A stretch of DNA of 36,556 nucleotides, taken from the NCBI GenBank assembly GCA_016179865.1, contig JACPCJ010000066.1, positions 1 to 36,556 of the forward strand, in the 5' to 3' direction. Positions 12,767 to 18,738 of this stretch are shown piece by piece (the first letter of the stretch is position 1; the number at the start of each line of letters is the position of its first letter). A program made the translations under genes and the position numbers. The notes under the pieces are model-generated. The model was given only the letters and a program-made list of their open reading frames with translations. It was not told where the DNA came from and ran no database searches. This DNA comes from Actinomycetota bacterium (GTDB lineage Bacteria; Actinomycetota; Acidimicrobiia; IMCC26256; JACPCJ01).

Positions 12767-14266
12767 ATGGCGAGTATCGATGACGTCCTTGAACGGCTGG
12801 TGGCCGACTCCGATTTCCGCGAGCAGCTGACGCGTGACCCGAAGGAGGCGCTGGCGGGGTACACGCTGAGCGCGGACGACCTCGACCTGCTCGTGTCCGA
12901 GCTGTCGGCGGACGCCGGCGAGGCGGGGGCCGTGGAAGGCCGCGTGACCAAGGCGGGCCTCGCGGGTCTGTTCTCCAGTCTCTTCGCCGGCGGCGGCGGT
13001 GCCCCGAGTGTGATCCAAGGCGTCGAAGTGGCGAGCGACTCGATCGACACCGACGGTGACTTCCTGAGCGACGCCGACGAGCTGGCCGCGGGCACTGACC
13101 CGCAGAACCCAGATACCGACGGCGACGGCCTTCCGGATGGGTGGGAGGTCAAGGGTGTGGAGAGTGATCCCCTGGCTCCGGACACCGACGGCGATGGGAT
13201 CAGCGACTACGACGAGGTTGCCGGGAAGACCGACCCGCTCGACGCCGACACGGACGACGACGACCTCTCGGACGGCGAAGAAAAGGCGCTCGGCACCGAT
13301 CCCACGAATGAGGACACCGACGGCGACGGCGATCCGGATTGGGCGGAGGTGAAGTGGGACCACACCGATCCCCTGAACCCCGACACCGACGGCGACGGCG
13401 ACTCGGACGCCGAGGAGGTCGTGGCCGGCAGTGACCCGAACAACCAGTGGAGCAACCTGGACGACCTCGACGGCGACAAGCTGTCCAACGCCAAGGAGGC
13501 CGAGCTCGGAACCGACCCGAACAACAAGGACACCGACGGCGACGGGCTGTCGGACTACGAGGAGCAGTGGTTCGCCGACCCCCTGAACCCCGACTCGGAC
13601 GACGACGAGTTGCTCGACGGCGAGGAGAAGGCGCTCGGCACGTGGGGCATGGATGCCGACAGCGACGACGACGGTGTGATTGACGGGTGGGAGGTGAAGC
13701 TCGGCACCGACCCGCTCAACGCCGACACCGACGGCGACGGCCTGAGCGACCTCGACGAGCTGCAGTGGGGCAGCGCCACGAGCCCCCTCGACGCCGACAG
13801 CGACGACGACGGCGTGTCGGACGGGGTCGAGGCGTTCCTCAATGACGCGGCAGGCAAGATCGACGTCACCGACTCGCTTGGTGGCGACCCCTCGCCGCCC
13901 GTTGACCCCGATCAATTCTCCGACCTCGACCTGGGCATCGAACTCATTGATCCCGCCGACGAGGGCGTTCCCGCCCCCCCGCTCAACGTCGACCCCGACA
14001 CGTTCGACGACGTGTCGGAGGCGCTCGAGCACTCGGGCGAGAAGCTCGGCGACCCACCGCTTCCGCAGGACGGCGACGACGGCCAGGGTGATTCCGCCCC
14101 CCCGCTGAACGTCGATCCCGACACGTTCGACAACGTGTCGGAGGCCGTGGGCGGCCAGGACGAGCCCGCTCCGCCCCCGCTCAACGTCGACCCCGACACG
14201 TTCGAGAACGTCGGTCAGCTCCTCACCAACGCCGACGGCGAGGGGGACGGCGACGGGGACGACTGA
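12767..14266 (+). CDS. Leader-TSP3 protein 4: LigA/NHLP-like N-terminal domain, TSP3 repeats, triplicated tail motif
   Basis: The protein is 499 aa. The ATG at 12767 is chosen from family alignment (MASIDDVLERLVADSDFR) and box spacing; an in-frame TTG 12 bases upstream is the alternative. The leader-like domain is residues 2-45, then DAGEAGAVEGRVTKAGLAGL. About twelve calcium loops (DTDGDGLSDYEE type) run from ~85 to ~365. The tail contains GIELIDPADEG, shared with gene 1, and three copies of APP(P)LNVDPDTF(D/E)(D/N)V spaced by acidic linkers. There is no signal peptide or membrane segment. The stop is one base from the start of gene 5, so the two are almost certainly cotranscribed from box 3. 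Confidence 0.9.
   Translation: MASIDDVLERLVADSDFREQLTRDPKEALAGYTLSADDLDLLVSELSADAGEAGAVEGRVTKAGLAGLFSSLFAGGGGAPSVIQGVEVASDSIDTDGDFLSDADELAAGTDPQNPDTDGDGLPDGWEVKGVESDPLAPDTDGDGISDYDEVAGKTDPLDADTDDDDLSDGEEKALGTDPTNEDTDGDGDPDWAEVKWDHTDPLNPDTDGDGDSDAEEVVAGSDPNNQWSNLDDLDGDKLSNAKEAELGTDPNNKDTDGDGLSDYEEQWFADPLNPDSDDDELLDGEEKALGTWGMDADSDDDGVIDGWEVKLGTDPLNADTDGDGLSDLDELQWGSATSPLDADSDDDGVSDGVEAFLNDAAGKIDVTDSLGGDPSPPVDPDQFSDLDLGIELIDPADEGVPAPPLNVDPDTFDDVSEALEHSGEKLGDPPLPQDGDDGQGDSAPPLNVDPDTFDNVSEAVGGQDEPAPPPLNVDPDTFENVGQLLTNADGEGDGDGDD
13972..14220 (+). repeat. Three in-frame copies of the APPLNVDPDTF motif in gene 4
   Basis: The unit APPLNVDPDTF(D/E)(D/N)V occurs three times near 13976, 14098 and 14171, separated by variable acidic/Pro linkers. 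The DNA core CCCCCGCTCAACGTCGACCC is nearly identical between copies, suggesting recent internal duplication. Confidence 0.75.
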
Positions 14267-14267
14267 G

Positions 14268-14954
14268 GTGCCGGGACTCGACGACGCCCTGGAACGCCTC
14301 GTCACCGATCGCGAGTTCCGCAGTCAGTTGCGTACGGATCCGAAGGGGGCGCTGGCCGGCTACGACCTCACGGCCTCCGACCTCGACATGCTCGCGGCCC
14401 AGATCAGCGACGACGAGGGAGGCGGCGGGTCAGTCGAGGCGCGGACCTCGAAGGCCGGCTTCGCAGGCCACTTCGCCGATCTCTTCGATGGCGCGCCCTC
14501 CAACACGTGGGAGTCACAAGACGCGTCGTTTCTCGGTGTGCCCGATGGCGAGTCGGTCGACGGATACGACGTCGACGCCGGAGACGGAGACGGAGACGGA
14601 GACGCCGACCAGGTCACCACGACCGTCGAGGAGTTCGACTACAACGAGGCTGGCCGCGTGATCGAGCACGACACGGAGACGGAGTCATCGGACTCCCCGA
14701 ACCTCCTCCACGCAGACGCGACCGTCATGGACTACAACGACCTCGGCGACGTCGTCGAGGAGGAAATCGTCGACCACGAGCCGGGTGTCCTCGACGCCGC
14801 CGATCCCGATCCCGAACCGACGCCCGGGCTGGGCCTCGACGAGCCGGACAACATGCCGTCTCCGCGGACCGAACCCACGTACGAAAGCGAGCTGGAGCCC
14901 ACCAGTGACGACGGCGAGTCGGGTGAGGGTGACGGCAGGGGCGAGGACGACTGA
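14268..14954 (+). CDS. Leader-like protein 5: same N-terminal domain but no TSP3 repeats
   Basis: The protein is 228 aa. The GTG start is one base after the gene 4 stop. The N-terminus (MPGLDDALERLVTDREFRSQ, then GALAGYDLTASDLDMLAAQI) and junction (DDEGGGGSVEARTSKAGFAG) match the four TSP3 paralogues. The TSP3 array is absent; after a short DGDGDGDAD run the rest is acidic and probably disordered (VEEFDYNEAGRVIEHDTETE, VMDYNDLGDVVEEEIVDHE). This shows that the N-terminal domain and junction are an independent module that can carry different cargo. It may be a partner or regulator of protein 4. Confidence 0.85.
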   Translation: MPGLDDALERLVTDREFRSQLRTDPKGALAGYDLTASDLDMLAAQISDDEGGGGSVEARTSKAGFAGHFADLFDGAPSNTWESQDASFLGVPDGESVDGYDVDAGDGDGDGDADQVTTTVEEFDYNEAGRVIEHDTETESSDSPNLLHADATVMDYNDLGDVVEEEIVDHEPGVLDAADPDPEPTPGLGLDEPDNMPSPRTEPTYESELEPTSDDGESGEGDGRGEDD

Positions 14955-14974
14955 TCGGGCCGTTCGCGCGACAA

Positions 14975-14990
14975 TGACACCGGCGTCAGG
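14975..14990. promoter_or_regulatory. Operator-like TGACAC-N4-GTCAGG before the aldolase gene
   Basis: TGACACCGGCGTCAGG, followed by TTTTTTCGA, closely matches 16738-16753 and its flank. TGAC/GTCA are inverted arms, the kind of site bound by TetR-type repressors. It lies 28 bases before the ATG at 15019. Confidence 0.5.
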
Positions 14991-15018
14991 TTTTTTCGAC
15001 GAACGAAGGGGCGCGGTC

Positions 15019-15783
15019 ATGGCGACGACCGAGGAATCCATCCAGCAGGACCTGCGGCGCAATCCCATGGCGCCGGCCATCCCGGAGCTGACCCCCCACC
15101 AGGAGCTGGCGCTGCTGGCCCGGATGCTCTGGCGTGAGGGTTACGACGACCACCTCTCGGGCCACATCACCTACCGCGATGACGACGGCACCCTGCTCGC
15201 CAACCCCTTCGGGCTGCCGTGGGATGAGATCCGCGCCTCCGACGTCATGCGCATCGACCTCGACGCCCGTCCCCTCGAGGGCCAGTGGACGGTGACCCCC
15301 GCCATCACCCTCCACACCGAGCTGCACAAGGCCCGCCACGACATCCGTTGGGCGGTGCACAACCACCCCGTGTGGGGGACGATCTGGTGCAACGTCCAGC
15401 GGGTCCCCCCGATCTACGACCAGACCTCGGCCGAGCTGATCGACGAGATCGCCCTCCACGACGAGTTCACCGGGCCCGTCCAGGACGTGGCCAACGCCAA
15501 GGGCTGCGTCGAAGCCATGGGCGACAAGCCGGTGGCCCTGCTCGCGAACCACGGCGTCTTCGTGGTGGCCGAGAGCGTGGCCAAGGTGTACCACCGGGCC
15601 TCGACGCTCGAGTGGCGCTGCCGCAACGCCTTCCGCACCGAGACCCTCGGGGGAGGAGTGGAGTTGAAGCCCGACATCGCCCGGGCCTTCGGCGAGCTGT
15701 TCGACACCCCAGTCGCGTTCCCGGGACTCTGGGAGGCCATGGTGCGCCGCGAACTCCGCCTCGACCCGTCCGTGCTCGACTAG
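15019..15783 (+). CDS. Class II aldolase/adducin family protein
   Basis: The protein is 254 aa. The ATG at 15019 follows GAAGGGG. The class II aldolase fold is recognised by HLSGHITYRDDDGTLLANPF, the zinc-binding WAVHNHPVWGTIW and LANHGVFVV, and HTELHKARHD. Family members are aldolases (fuculose-phosphate type), epimerases or dehydratases acting on sugar phosphates or related hydroxy-keto acids; the substrate cannot be assigned. An operator-like sequence shared with the LLM oxidoreductase gene precedes it. A hairpin (15808-15826) follows. Confidence 0.85.
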   Translation: MATTEESIQQDLRRNPMAPAIPELTPHQELALLARMLWREGYDDHLSGHITYRDDDGTLLANPFGLPWDEIRASDVMRIDLDARPLEGQWTVTPAITLHTELHKARHDIRWAVHNHPVWGTIWCNVQRVPPIYDQTSAELIDEIALHDEFTGPVQDVANAKGCVEAMGDKPVALLANHGVFVVAESVAKVYHRASTLEWRCRNAFRTETLGGGVELKPDIARAFGELFDTPVAFPGLWEAMVRRELRLDPSVLD

Positions 15784-15807
15784 TCCCTTCGCGCACTCCG
15801 CGCCATC

Positions 15808-15826
15808 TGCCCGCCGCAAGCGGGCA
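15808..15826 (+). terminator. Hairpin downstream of the aldolase gene
   Basis: TGCCCGC (15808-15814) and GCGGGCA (15820-15826) are perfect arms around CGCAA. There is no clear U-tract, so termination strength is uncertain. Confidence 0.5.
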
Positions 15827-15885
15827 AAGCTGCTCAAGGCCCCACGCGGGCCGGTCGTTGCTGCCCTTGGGAGAGGAGCAACGAA

Positions 15886-16740
15886 GTGCGCACACGCATC
15901 ACCGTCCGAACCGTCGCGCGCTACCACGGCGTGGTCACCGCCGCCGCGCTCGCCGCCGCCGTGCTGTCGGCCGCCTTCTCGACGCCGGACGAGGCCGCAC
16001 CGGTCGAGCAGTCGCAGTCGGAGGTGCCGATTCTCTACTGCGTGCAGTCGTACTCGCCCGGGCCCGAGACCCACGGGCTGGTGTGCGACGGGGGTGACGG
16101 GACCAGCTCGTCGTCCACCAGCTCGTCGTCCACGACCTCATCGTCCACGACCTCGACGACCGAGGGCGGGGGTGGCGGTGGGGCCACGACGACCACCACC
16201 ACGACGACCGCCACGCCCCAGCCGACCACGACCACGACCCAGCGCGTGTCGACTCCGACCACGCGCGGCGGCGACGGTGGCGACGGCGGCTCCGGTGGCG
16301 GCGGGGGCGGCGGTGGATCGGGGGGCGACTCGAAGAGTTCGGATTCCGGAGGCGGATCGGGAGCCGGCGACACCGGGACCGCCGGCGCGGGCTCAAACAC
16401 GGGCTCGGGCTCCTCCTCGCAGGGCGGCAACAGCGCGACGCCGGGTTCCACCAGCTCGGGCGCCGGTACCTCGGATGGCGGGGGCGAGCGGGCCCGGACG
16501 GACGCCACCGGGGAGGCGAAGCGGGCCGCGTCGGTCGCCGTCGTGCCCGGCGCCCCAGCGGTGCCCGTCGACTCGCTGCGAAACGGGCTCGTCGTGTGGA
16601 GCCTGGCCCACGGCCTCTCGGCGCTCTACCTGCTGATGCGCCGGCTTCGCCTCTTCCTGTTCGCGCTGGCGAACCGACGGCGGAGCGAGGGCCGCGAAGG
16701 GGACTCGCCCGCCGCAGCCTCCGCCGATAGAGTTTCCTGA
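15886..16740 (+). CDS. Ser/Thr/Gly-rich membrane-anchored surface protein
   Basis: The protein is 284 aa. The GTG start has a good GAGAGGAG ribosome site. Residues ~14-35 are a hydrophobic export signal (YHGVVTAAALAAAVLSAAFS). Residues ~70-200 are low-complexity Ser/Thr, poly-Thr and Gly runs, likely an extended and possibly glycosylated stalk. A second hydrophobic stretch near residues 226-260 (LRNGLVVWSLAHGLSALYLL, then basic MRRLRLFLFALANRRR) would anchor the C-terminus, with the positive residues inside. No enzyme motif is visible. Its stop codon TGA forms the first bases of the operator before the LLM gene. The real coding status is supported by frame, start and signal, but low complexity limits certainty. 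Confidence 0.65.
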   Translation: MRTRITVRTVARYHGVVTAAALAAAVLSAAFSTPDEAAPVEQSQSEVPILYCVQSYSPGPETHGLVCDGGDGTSSSSTSSSSTTSSSTTSTTEGGGGGGATTTTTTTTATPQPTTTTTQRVSTPTTRGGDGGDGGSGGGGGGGGSGGDSKSSDSGGGSGAGDTGTAGAGSNTGSGSSSQGGNSATPGSTSSGAGTSDGGGERARTDATGEAKRAASVAVVPGAPAVPVDSLRNGLVVWSLAHGLSALYLLMRRLRLFLFALANRRRSEGREGDSPAAASADRVS

Positions 16741-16753
16741 CACGCACGTCAGG
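16738..16753. promoter_or_regulatory. Operator-like TGACAC-N4-GTCAGG before the LLM oxidoreductase gene
   Basis: TGACACGCACGTCAGG contains perfect arms CCTGAC/GTCAGG when the two preceding bases are included, and is followed by TTTCTTCGA. A possible -10 element, TAGAGT (16728-16733), lies just upstream, so a bound protein would sit near the transcription start. The same site precedes the aldolase gene. Confidence 0.55.
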
Positions 16754-16772
16754 TTTCTTCGAGGGGGACCCG

Positions 16773-17855
16773 GTGAAGTTCTCGTTGCTCTACGAGCTCG
16801 ACATGCCCGCCTCGCTCGAGAAGAGCGAGCACGACATTTTCCACGAAGCGGTCGAACAGTCGGTCTTCGCCGAGCAGATGGGCTTCGACTGCGTGTGGGC
16901 GGTCGAGCACCACTTCCTGAAGGAGTTCTCGCACTCGTCGGCCCCGGAGACCTTCCTCGCCACGGTGGCGGCCAAGACGGAGCGCATCCGCATCGGCCAC
17001 GGCGTCGTGCTGGTGCCCCCGCCCTTCAATCACCCCGCCCGGGTGGCCGAGCGGGTCTCGATGCTCGACATCGCCTCCAACGGACGGGTCGAGTTCGGCA
17101 CCGGGCGGTCGATCACCAAGGCCGAGCTGGGCGGCTTCAACATCAACCCCGACGAGTCCCGGGGGATGTGGGAGGAGGCCACCCGCGAGATCCCCAAGAT
17201 GATGACCCAGGATCTCTACGAGGGCTTCGAGGGCCAGTACTTCTCGATGCCCGAGCGCTACGTGGTGCCGAAGCCGTTCCAGAAGCCGCACCCCCCGATG
17301 TGGATGGCCTGCACGTCACCGCCGAGTTTCGAGCTGGCGGGCAAGTACGGGCTCGGCGTTCTGTGCTTCACCATCGGCGAGCCGGGCGAGCTCGAGCAGC
17401 TCATCAAGGTGTACCGGGAGGCGATCAAGAACCCTGAGCCCATCAGCCAGGTGGTGAACGAGCAGGTGGCCGGGTTCACGGTGCTCCACGTCGGCGAGGA
17501 CGACGCCGCCGCCCGCCAGCGGGCCGGCGAGGCCGCCGTCTGGTACTTCGGGAAGCTGTTCGAGTACTTCGGCGAGATCGCCAGCTACGAGGGCTACCGC
17601 GACTACCGGAAGCGCTTCGAAGACTCCAAGCACTTCTACGAGGAGGAAGTGCGCCAGAAGATGATCGACAACCTCGTCGACAAGCACGTCATCTGCGCCG
17701 GCGACCCCGACCGCTGCATCGACACCGTGAAGCAGTACGAGGCCCAGGGCATCGACCAGTTCATCGGCATCATGCAGGTGGGCGCCATCCCCCACGAAGA
17801 CATCATGGAGAGCATCCGCCTCTTCGGCGAGAAGGTGATCCCCGCCTTCCGATAG
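16773..17855 (+). CDS. LLM-class flavin-dependent oxidoreductase
   Basis: The protein is 360 aa, normal for bacterial luciferase-like monooxygenases. The GTG start follows GAGGGGG. Family features are FAEQMGFDCVWAVEHHF, AAKTERIRIGHGVVLVPPPF, HPARVAERVSMLDIASNGRV and EFGTGRSITKAELGGF, then PKPFQKPHPPMWMA. These enzymes use reduced FMN or F420 to oxygenate or reduce small organic molecules. The length and EHHF motif suit the FMN/alkanal type, but the cofactor is not settled. Similar genes are common in actinobacterial lipid or steroid catabolism, which fits the SDR neighbours. A bidirectional hairpin separates it from the convergent SDR genes. Confidence 0.9.
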   Translation: MKFSLLYELDMPASLEKSEHDIFHEAVEQSVFAEQMGFDCVWAVEHHFLKEFSHSSAPETFLATVAAKTERIRIGHGVVLVPPPFNHPARVAERVSMLDIASNGRVEFGTGRSITKAELGGFNINPDESRGMWEEATREIPKMMTQDLYEGFEGQYFSMPERYVVPKPFQKPHPPMWMACTSPPSFELAGKYGLGVLCFTIGEPGELEQLIKVYREAIKNPEPISQVVNEQVAGFTVLHVGEDDAAARQRAGEAAVWYFGKLFEYFGEIASYEGYRDYRKRFEDSKHFYEEEVRQKMIDNLVDKHVICAGDPDRCIDTVKQYEAQGIDQFIGIMQVGAIPHEDIMESIRLFGEKVIPAFR

Positions 17856-17870: not shown

Positions 17871-17923
17871 CCGAATTTGGTTTCGTTTCTCACACCATCG
17901 CGTGGAAATGAAACCAAGTTCGG
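17871..17923. terminator. Bidirectional hairpin between convergent genes, containing the dispersed repeat
   Basis: CCGAATTTGGTTTC (17871-17884) pairs with GAAACCAAGTTCGG (17910-17923) with one wobble. The left arm and loop repeat the element at 9358-9385. Its location between two converging stops suggests a two-way terminator. Confidence 0.65.
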
Positions 17924-17925
17924 GG

Positions 17926-18738
17926 TCAACCGCCGAGGCTGAGGGGGAACTTCACCGAGGCGCCGCCGTCGGCCACGACCGTCTGGCCCGTGACGTACGA
18001 CGCCAGGTCGGAGCACAGGAACAGCGCCACCTTGGCGATGTCGTCGGGCTCGGCCATGCGACCCAGGGGGATCGACTTCGACGACTCGGCCTCCCGCTCG
18101 AGCGACAGCCGTTCGAGGACGCGTGGCGTGCGGACGGCGCCGGGTGCGACGGCGTTGACCCGGATGCCGTGCGGCGCCAGCTCGACCGCCAGCGTTTTCG
18201 TGAGCGACACGAGACCCGCCTTCGCCGCCCCGTAGGCGGCGTGGAAGGGAGCGGCGAACAGCCCGCTCACCGACGCGATGGACGTGATCGCCCCGCCCGT
18301 TGTCCCGCTCTGAGAGGCCGCTCGGGCCTTGGTCCCCTGCTCCACCATGACCCGGCCCGCGGCCTGGGACAGGAAGAACAGGTGGCGCAGCACGAGGTCG
18401 AAGCTCTGGTCCCAGTCTTCGTCGGTGAGCTCCAGCACCGGGTTCCAGCGGGCCACGCCCACGATGTCGACGGCGACGTCGAGGCCGCCGAAGGCGGCGA
18501 CGGTGGCGGCCACGGCGGCGTCGACGTCGGCACGCACGAGCAGGTCGCCCTCGACGGCCACGGCCTCGGCCCCCAGGCCGGTCAGCTCGGCGACGACCGC
18601 ATCCCGGCGTTCGGCGTCGACGTCCATGCAGGCCACCTTGGCCCCGGCGCCGGCGAGGAGGAGCGCCGTCGCCCGCCCGATCCCCTGGCCCGCCCCCGCC
18701 ACCAGCGCGCCCTTCCCCGTCAGGCCCAGCTCGGTCAC
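17926..18738 (-). CDS. SDR-family oxidoreductase (second gene of pair)
   Basis: The protein is 270 aa. The GTG start at 18738 overlaps the stop of the upstream SDR gene by 4 bases (GTGA); the open frame continues far upstream but only as nonsense opposite that gene. The Rossmann motif is VAGAGQGIGRATALLLAGAG. The usual NNAG is replaced by DIVGVA. Catalytic Ser and YxxxK lie in SIASVSGLFAAPFHAAYGAA and K. The C-terminus has IRVNAVAPGAVRTP and VTGQTVVADGG, typical of classical NAD(P)-dependent SDRs. It probably oxidises or reduces a hydroxyl or ketone in a lipid-like substrate; the substrate is unknown. Confidence 0.9.
   Translation of the reverse strand: MTELGLTGKGALVAGAGQGIGRATALLLAGAGAKVACMDVDAERRDAVVAELTGLGAEAVAVEGDLLVRADVDAAVAATVAAFGGLDVAVDIVGVARWNPVLELTDEDWDQSFDLVLRHLFFLSQAAGRVMVEQGTKARAASQSGTTGGAITSIASVSGLFAAPFHAAYGAAKAGLVSLTKTLAVELAPHGIRVNAVAPGAVRTPRVLERLSLEREAESSKSIPLGRMAEPDDIAKVALFLCSDLASYVTGQTVVADGGASVKFPLSLGG

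Follow-up and report, generated by a model that had tools for sequence, protein, structure and literature searches.

Paired palindromic sites before an aldolase-type and a luciferase-like oxidoreductase gene are probably operators of a genome-wide TetR-family regulon

The question raised by this locus is whether two matching sequence elements, each placed directly upstream of a metabolic gene, are operators of one regulator, and how far the control exerted by such a regulator extends. The window, that is, the whole stretch of DNA analyzed, comprises 36,556 nucleotides and corresponds to positions 1-36556 of contig C30 of genome G000, a 2.5-Mb metagenome-assembled genome (MAG) of 144 contigs and 70.46% completeness. 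The 25-mer TGACACNNNNGTCAGGTTTYTTCGA occurs at 14975-14999 and 16738-16762, both on the + strand and without mismatch; no third copy with up to three mismatches is present in the window, and 100 shuffles yielded none. The repeat that a preliminary description had reported before the aldolase and luciferase-like (LLM class) genes is thus real, and its first position is correct; the second copy ends at 16762 rather than 16761.

The features of the locus and the two regulators discussed below are listed in Table 1. The core of the element ends 30 bp 5′ of the called start codon of the Aldolase_II gene (15019) and 21 bp 5′ of that of the Bac_luciferase gene (16773); the aldolase start is the one called by a codon-usage gene caller, and the domain match was scanned from 15082. 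Operator 1 carries an A in place of the outer left C, and no TANNNT sequence was counted beside it. The TGA stop codon of the intervening ORF forms the first three bases of the operator 2 core, and a transcription start about 7 bp past TAGAGT would fall within operator 2. By eye, the product of the intervening ORF has a signal-peptide-like N-terminus and a membrane-anchor-like C-terminus. Elsewhere in the window, the adjacent ORFs 12767-14266 and 14268-14954 have weak N-terminal Frankia_peptide matches (30.3 and 28.6 bits, cut-off 48), the former also with TSP3 repeats in five stretches, and could encode secreted or RiPP-like proteins. A long inverted repeat, CCGAATTTGGTTTCGTTTC ... GAAATGAAACCAAGTTCGG, seen by eye at about 17872-17926 between the convergent LLM and SDR genes, is probably a two-way terminator.

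Table 1. Predicted operators, neighboring features and the two TetR-family regulators (window positions unless a contig is given).
Feature	Position	Strand	Basis or context
Weak -10-like GACAAT, touching operator 1, uncertain	14970..14975	+	read from sequence
Operator 1, predicted; core TGACACCGGCGTCA 14975-14988	14971..14992 with flanks	.	5′ of aldolase-type gene
Class II aldolase/adducin-domain protein, 254 aa, predicted target	15019..15783	+	PF00596, E 1.1e-40
ORF of 284 aa, Ser/Thr/Gly-rich, between both target genes	15886..16740	+	no Pfam/NCBIfam match at E 0.001
-10-like TAGAGT, 5′ of LLM gene	16728..16733	+	read from sequence, and TANNNT enrichment by sites
Operator 2, predicted; core TGACACGCACGTCA 16738-16751	16734..16755 with flanks	.	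5′ of LLM gene
Luciferase-like (LLM class) oxidoreductase, 360 aa, predicted target	16773..17855	+	PF00296, E 6.1e-51
Candidate regulator, TetR family, 211 aa, outside the window	G000:C131:117-749		GTG start at 117
Sister TetR, clade B	G000:C62:36047-36634 or 36044-36643 (L034 16044-16643)		divergent from acyl-CoA dehydrogenase gene

The element was aligned over 24 of 26 sites in the genome (those on C53 and C89 were left out); this yielded 35 oriented rows, each no more than 150 bp from a gene start, and sites between divergent genes were entered twice. Around the core TGAC-N6-GTCA, conservation reaches AACC on the left and GGTT on the right, and the full element is a near-palindrome of about 22 bp, AACCTGACACG-CGTGTCAGGTT. 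The tail included in the preliminary description therefore survives in part: its GGTT is the outer arm of the longer palindrome (AACC...GGTT), while its TTCGA is not conserved in the other sites.

Across the genome, TGACAN5GTCAG gives 33 strand-matches at 25 distinct places, the reversed-pattern control gives none, and 16 other spacings in the range 0-16 together give 26 strand-matches against the 33 at N5. The looser core TGACRN5GTCA gives 112 strand-matches versus 3 for its control; many of these are probably chance matches in coding sequence, and for this reason the stricter pattern was relied on. The distribution, for which a genome-wide scan had been proposed, proved non-random and almost wholly extragenic: 24 of the 25 places (25 of 26 with C131:4436, added from the looser core) lie outside genes called by a simple codon-usage caller written for this analysis, against a coding fraction of 90% in the fetched DNA. 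The cores at C25:28447 and C30:16738 overlap gene ends by a few bases. Some sites look like chance occurrences or misfits, namely C53:19139, which lies within a gene, and C89:61742, which matches poorly. A private operator pair for two genes is ruled out by the 25 genomic places; one regulator for both genes, as first suggested, is retained, and what falls is the exclusiveness of the pair, the window sites being two of about 25.

The sites are also placed where core promoters would be expected to lie. On either strand, TANNNT occurs at 19 of 550 positions within the 16 bp to the left and right of 25 sites (without C53), versus 132 of 32,438 positions in the remaining intergenic DNA (Fisher P 1e-11), with 12 of 25 sites having no adjacent TANNNT. 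Since the sites adjoin -10-like elements, blocking of the polymerase would be the simplest reading of their position.

To characterize the genes behind the sites, 40 proteins encoded around them in this genome were scanned for families. Genes headed by a site include those for acyl-CoA dehydrogenases, enoyl-CoA hydratase, thiolase, AMP-binding CoA ligases and CoA-transferase III, together with five Amidohydro_2 genes, P450, SDRs, MaoC-like hydratases, aldehyde dehydrogenase, an esterase, an MFS transporter and a Peripla_BP_6 protein. A Gluconate_2-dh3 gene with a site is followed by a GMC oxidoreductase gene, and a second LLM gene (G000:C128:15917), the closest paralogue of the window LLM gene at 70% identity, likewise has a site upstream and is followed by a P450 gene. 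The enrichment of Amidohydro_2 downstream of sites is strong: 5 of its 11 matches in the genome have a site directly upstream (P ~4e-7, assuming that 40 of 2,400 genes are site-adjacent, both figures being rounded guesses). Less fitting genes headed by sites encode DM13, an FGGY kinase, LplA-B, and pyridoxamine oxidase-like, Rce1-like, HlyIII, MiaE-like and Big_1 proteins, and several site-headed proteins have no family at all.

No TetR_N match was found on the window contig, in line with the preliminary description, which had placed no such regulator in the window. That description had pointed, as a way of finding the regulator, to a TetR gene whose own promoter carries the site, and such a gene is present on contig C131: an imperfect site, CTGACGCAGTTGTCAG, lies 22 bp before its start, and sites recur by its orthologues. 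The encoded protein matches TetR_N (PF00440) at 62.9 bits versus a cut-off of 24, and its gene is followed by those for a 236-aa protein without family and a CoA ligase. The genome holds 23 TetR_N matches, and by coordinates none of the other 22 is closer than about 2 kb to any of the 25 sites. Among the NCBIfam models, none reached its cut-off against this protein, including FadR of the Bacillus type (42.6 versus 200 bits), FasR (32.3 versus 330 bits) and ScbR (50.9 versus 150 bits).

Homologues of this TetR protein were collected from 58 genomes of the order, taking the loci of 30 of the best matches first and then more by place, with weaker matches fetched only in part. A first tree of 52 proteins divides them into two clades, A and B, with split support of 100/98. 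Counting as a site any sequence with all eight core letters and at least two of the four edge letters, 22 of 32 clade-A genes have one within 300 bp up- or downstream, versus none of 20 clade-B genes (P 2.6e-7), the latter count including two genes from named records. A wider set added further loci, some of them from other orders of the class, with few candidates scored per genome in those orders; one duplicate row was dropped, and rows below 85 bits or with fewer than 100 aligned residues were left out. Here a site lies beside 26 of 42 clade-A genes, leaving 16 with none within 300 bp, versus 4 of 52 on the clade-B side. All four exceptions come from outside the order, three of them from family f21 and the fourth from genome G144, which suggests that the operator is older than the split between the clades; the second tree was built quickly and leaves many forks open, and L070, a row lacking a site, falls on different sides in the two trees. 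Sites by clade-A genes are often variants, for example CTGACGC-GCGTCAG or GTGACA-TGTCAC.

Named relatives of the C131 protein were few. The 3.4 kb of the closest (49% identical) contain no site; IMCC26207, listed by NCBI only under unclassified Actinomycetes, and a near copy (TetR 41% identical) have two sites each in 12.6 kb, at 2-4 kb from the TetR gene; and plasmid homologues reach at most 35% identity. The TetR encoded in a MAG record titled Bifidobacterium breve (L081) hardly differs from that of Actinobacteria bacterium IMCC26207, and because of this near-identity the record is probably misnamed or contaminated. In relatives, a second palindrome, CACGA-N3-TCGTG, is present upstream of clade-A TetR genes in 10 of 42 cases and is possibly another site or coding sequence.

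The operator is widespread in the order. Perfect CTGACAN4TGTCAG sites are found in 40 of the 58 genomes, this one included, and the reversed pattern in none of the 58. Of the 44 genomes whose best TetR match reaches E 1e-20, 38 have such sites, versus 2 of the 14 that lack a match of this strength (P 1.5e-6). In 40 regions fetched from other genomes, among the matches listed, there are 43 sites, which are perfect or deviate at one edge; 41 of them lie outside called genes. Near these start 53 proteins, and the 40 that were scanned comprise 6 Amidohydro_2 proteins, 5 acyl-CoA dehydrogenases, 5 CoA-transferase III proteins, 5 CoA ligases, 2 P450, 2 Peripla_BP_6, 2 Gluconate_2-dh3, 2 MFS-ABC fusions, one protein each for 10 further families, LLM among them, and 1 protein assigned to no family. 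Since the target families are alike across relatives, this type of regulon recurs in the order.

The control of the two window genes is less widely distributed. The preliminary description had tied its proposal to a site upstream of orthologues, and this did not hold for the homologues compared: in a strand-aware search that excluded the copies of the window, the 300 bp upstream, complete in every case, contained a site in 0 of 29 homologues of the LLM gene and 0 of 26 of the aldolase gene in the order. The loci were the best 30 LLM and 27 aldolase matches, and the LLM paralogue with a site in this genome was not among them. All compared genomes come from other genera and families than this one, and the best homologues reach only about 50% (LLM) and 60% (aldolase) identity, too distant for clear orthologues, so these counts are of limited weight. 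Given the homologues without a site, control of the window aldolase and LLM genes is at best lineage-specific.

The motif, its copy number, its extragenic position at promoters, its link to a single TetR clade and the types of gene behind it were all obtained by computation. Both window sites are probably operators of a genome-wide regulon run by the TetR-family repressor encoded on C131, a reading in which the single TetR-type repressor first proposed for the two genes finds support in both the scan and the C131 gene; binding by this protein rather than its sister, repression rather than activation, and the ligand are what we infer. A dimer would most likely bind the palindrome of about 22 bp in the core promoter, where it would obstruct RNA polymerase both at the TetR gene itself and at some 20 further promoter regions, most of which serve acyl-CoA-based catabolism; a pathway intermediate, probably an acyl-CoA, would release it. 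Counted against this proposal are the homologues of both window genes that lack a site, the 16 clade-A genes with none nearby, the imperfect sites of the C131 gene and its orthologues, the recognition-helix sequence shared with the sister TetR, the perfect sites in two genomes where only that sister was found, the misfit sites, and several target genes that are not catabolic.

It is possible, though not probable, that the sister TetR of clade B is the main binder, or that it shares the sites with clade A in a two-repressor network. The core recognition helix SHGTFYLYF is identical in the two proteins of this genome and is the consensus of both clades, with only T54 varying (31/32 and 18/20), and over the first 75 columns clade differences are flagged only at R15/Q, K46/R, F66/L and V73/C. 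Of the 25 sites, five are on contig C62, none farther than about 22 kb from the clade-B gene; perfect sites are present in G013 and G021, incomplete genomes that yielded clade B alone; and in family f21, outside the order, each of the three genes on the clade-B side has an adjacent site. However, none of the 20 clade-B genes counted above for the order has such a site, and among palindromes sought 5′ of the genes on the clade-B side the best was CCGAC-N9-GTCGG (8 of 52, versus a shuffle best of 4), none being convincing. The helix core common to both proteins and the sites in the two incomplete genomes imply that either or both may act at a given site. Enoyl-CoA hydratase and thiolase genes lie near the sister gene.

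A broader reading, which we advance only tentatively, is that an ancient duplicated TetR pair with the same core recognition helix runs one shared network, present in most genomes of the order and covering up to about 20 promoter regions of an undescribed CoA-dependent pathway that would comprise an amidohydrolase, a two-domain CoA-transferase, a P450, an LLM oxidoreductase and a GMC oxidoreductase. Individual lineages would have recruited extra genes, such as the window aldolase and LLM genes, and one copy would have kept its self-regulating site while the other lost it.

It is improbable that the regulator is an activator, or that the sites serve another family and are linked to TetR only through shared gene neighborhoods. 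The sites do adjoin acyl-CoA genes, which may have TetR genes in their vicinity; yet in this genome the sister TetR also lies among such genes without adjacent sites, the presence of sites tracks that of the TetR across genomes, and the sites are near -10-like elements, where a bound dimer would hinder the polymerase. A chance repeat or duplicated promoter DNA, to which the tail GGTTTYTTCGA common to both window sites might point, has a negligible probability and is ruled out by the spacing, reversed-pattern (no matches) and cross-genome controls, by the copy number and recurrence in the order, and by the poor alignment of the two loci past the site and tail.

The regulon proposed for the C131 protein can be compared with known TetR systems. 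KstR2 of mycobacteria and rhodococci is a TetR regulator of cholesterol catabolism that binds a 14-bp palindrome (AnCAAGnnCTTGnT, three sites per genome), including a site in its own promoter region, and controls divergent catabolic operons, five of six starts being preceded by a site at 22-82 bp (PMC3068626). The present system would resemble it in family, own-promoter site, divergent catabolic operons and sites a few tens of bases before starts, and differs from it in the TGAC-N6-GTCA core with extended arms and in its approximately 25 sites; against the NCBIfam KstR model the C131 protein scores 20.9 bits (cut-off 280), and no KstR2 model was among the matches. MftR of mycobacteria is a TetR regulator responsive to long-chain acyl-CoA, with the operator T-N2-GGCA-N5-TGCC-N2-A (PMC8728441); the present system shares with it the family and possibly an acyl-CoA ligand and differs in the operator, and the C131 protein scores 32.8 bits against a cut-off of 224.9. 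EthR of Mycobacterium tuberculosis is the nearest solved relative by sequence (residues 25-201 alignable, E 3.8e-11), but the EthR_C match, at 25.2 bits, is below the Pfam cut-off of 27. Control of several acyl-CoA operons by one TetR protein is also seen in the fatty acid degradation regulators FadR of Thermus, with the consensus TTRNACYNRGTNYAA (PMC5597230), and FadP and PsrA of Proteobacteria, FadP averaging 17.9 genes per genome (PMC5343134). The operator sequence differs from those of MabR, KstR2, MftR and Thermus FadR. In open-licence papers, written forms of the palindrome matched only work on plant WHIRLY proteins, and searches on TetR regulators of Acidimicrobiia or on the enzyme set returned no description of the operator. 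We regard the TetR regulon as real and as one more of a well-known type; the open-licence literature searched yielded no description of it.

For these bacteria, represented mostly by MAGs and carrying catabolic genes that are hard to assign, the operator is a tag for co-regulated genes. It ties together families of unknown substrate, namely Amidohydro_2, two-domain CoA-transferase III, LLM oxidoreductases and P450, which may form one or a few pathways, and the regulator provides, through ligand binding, a handle on the substrate.
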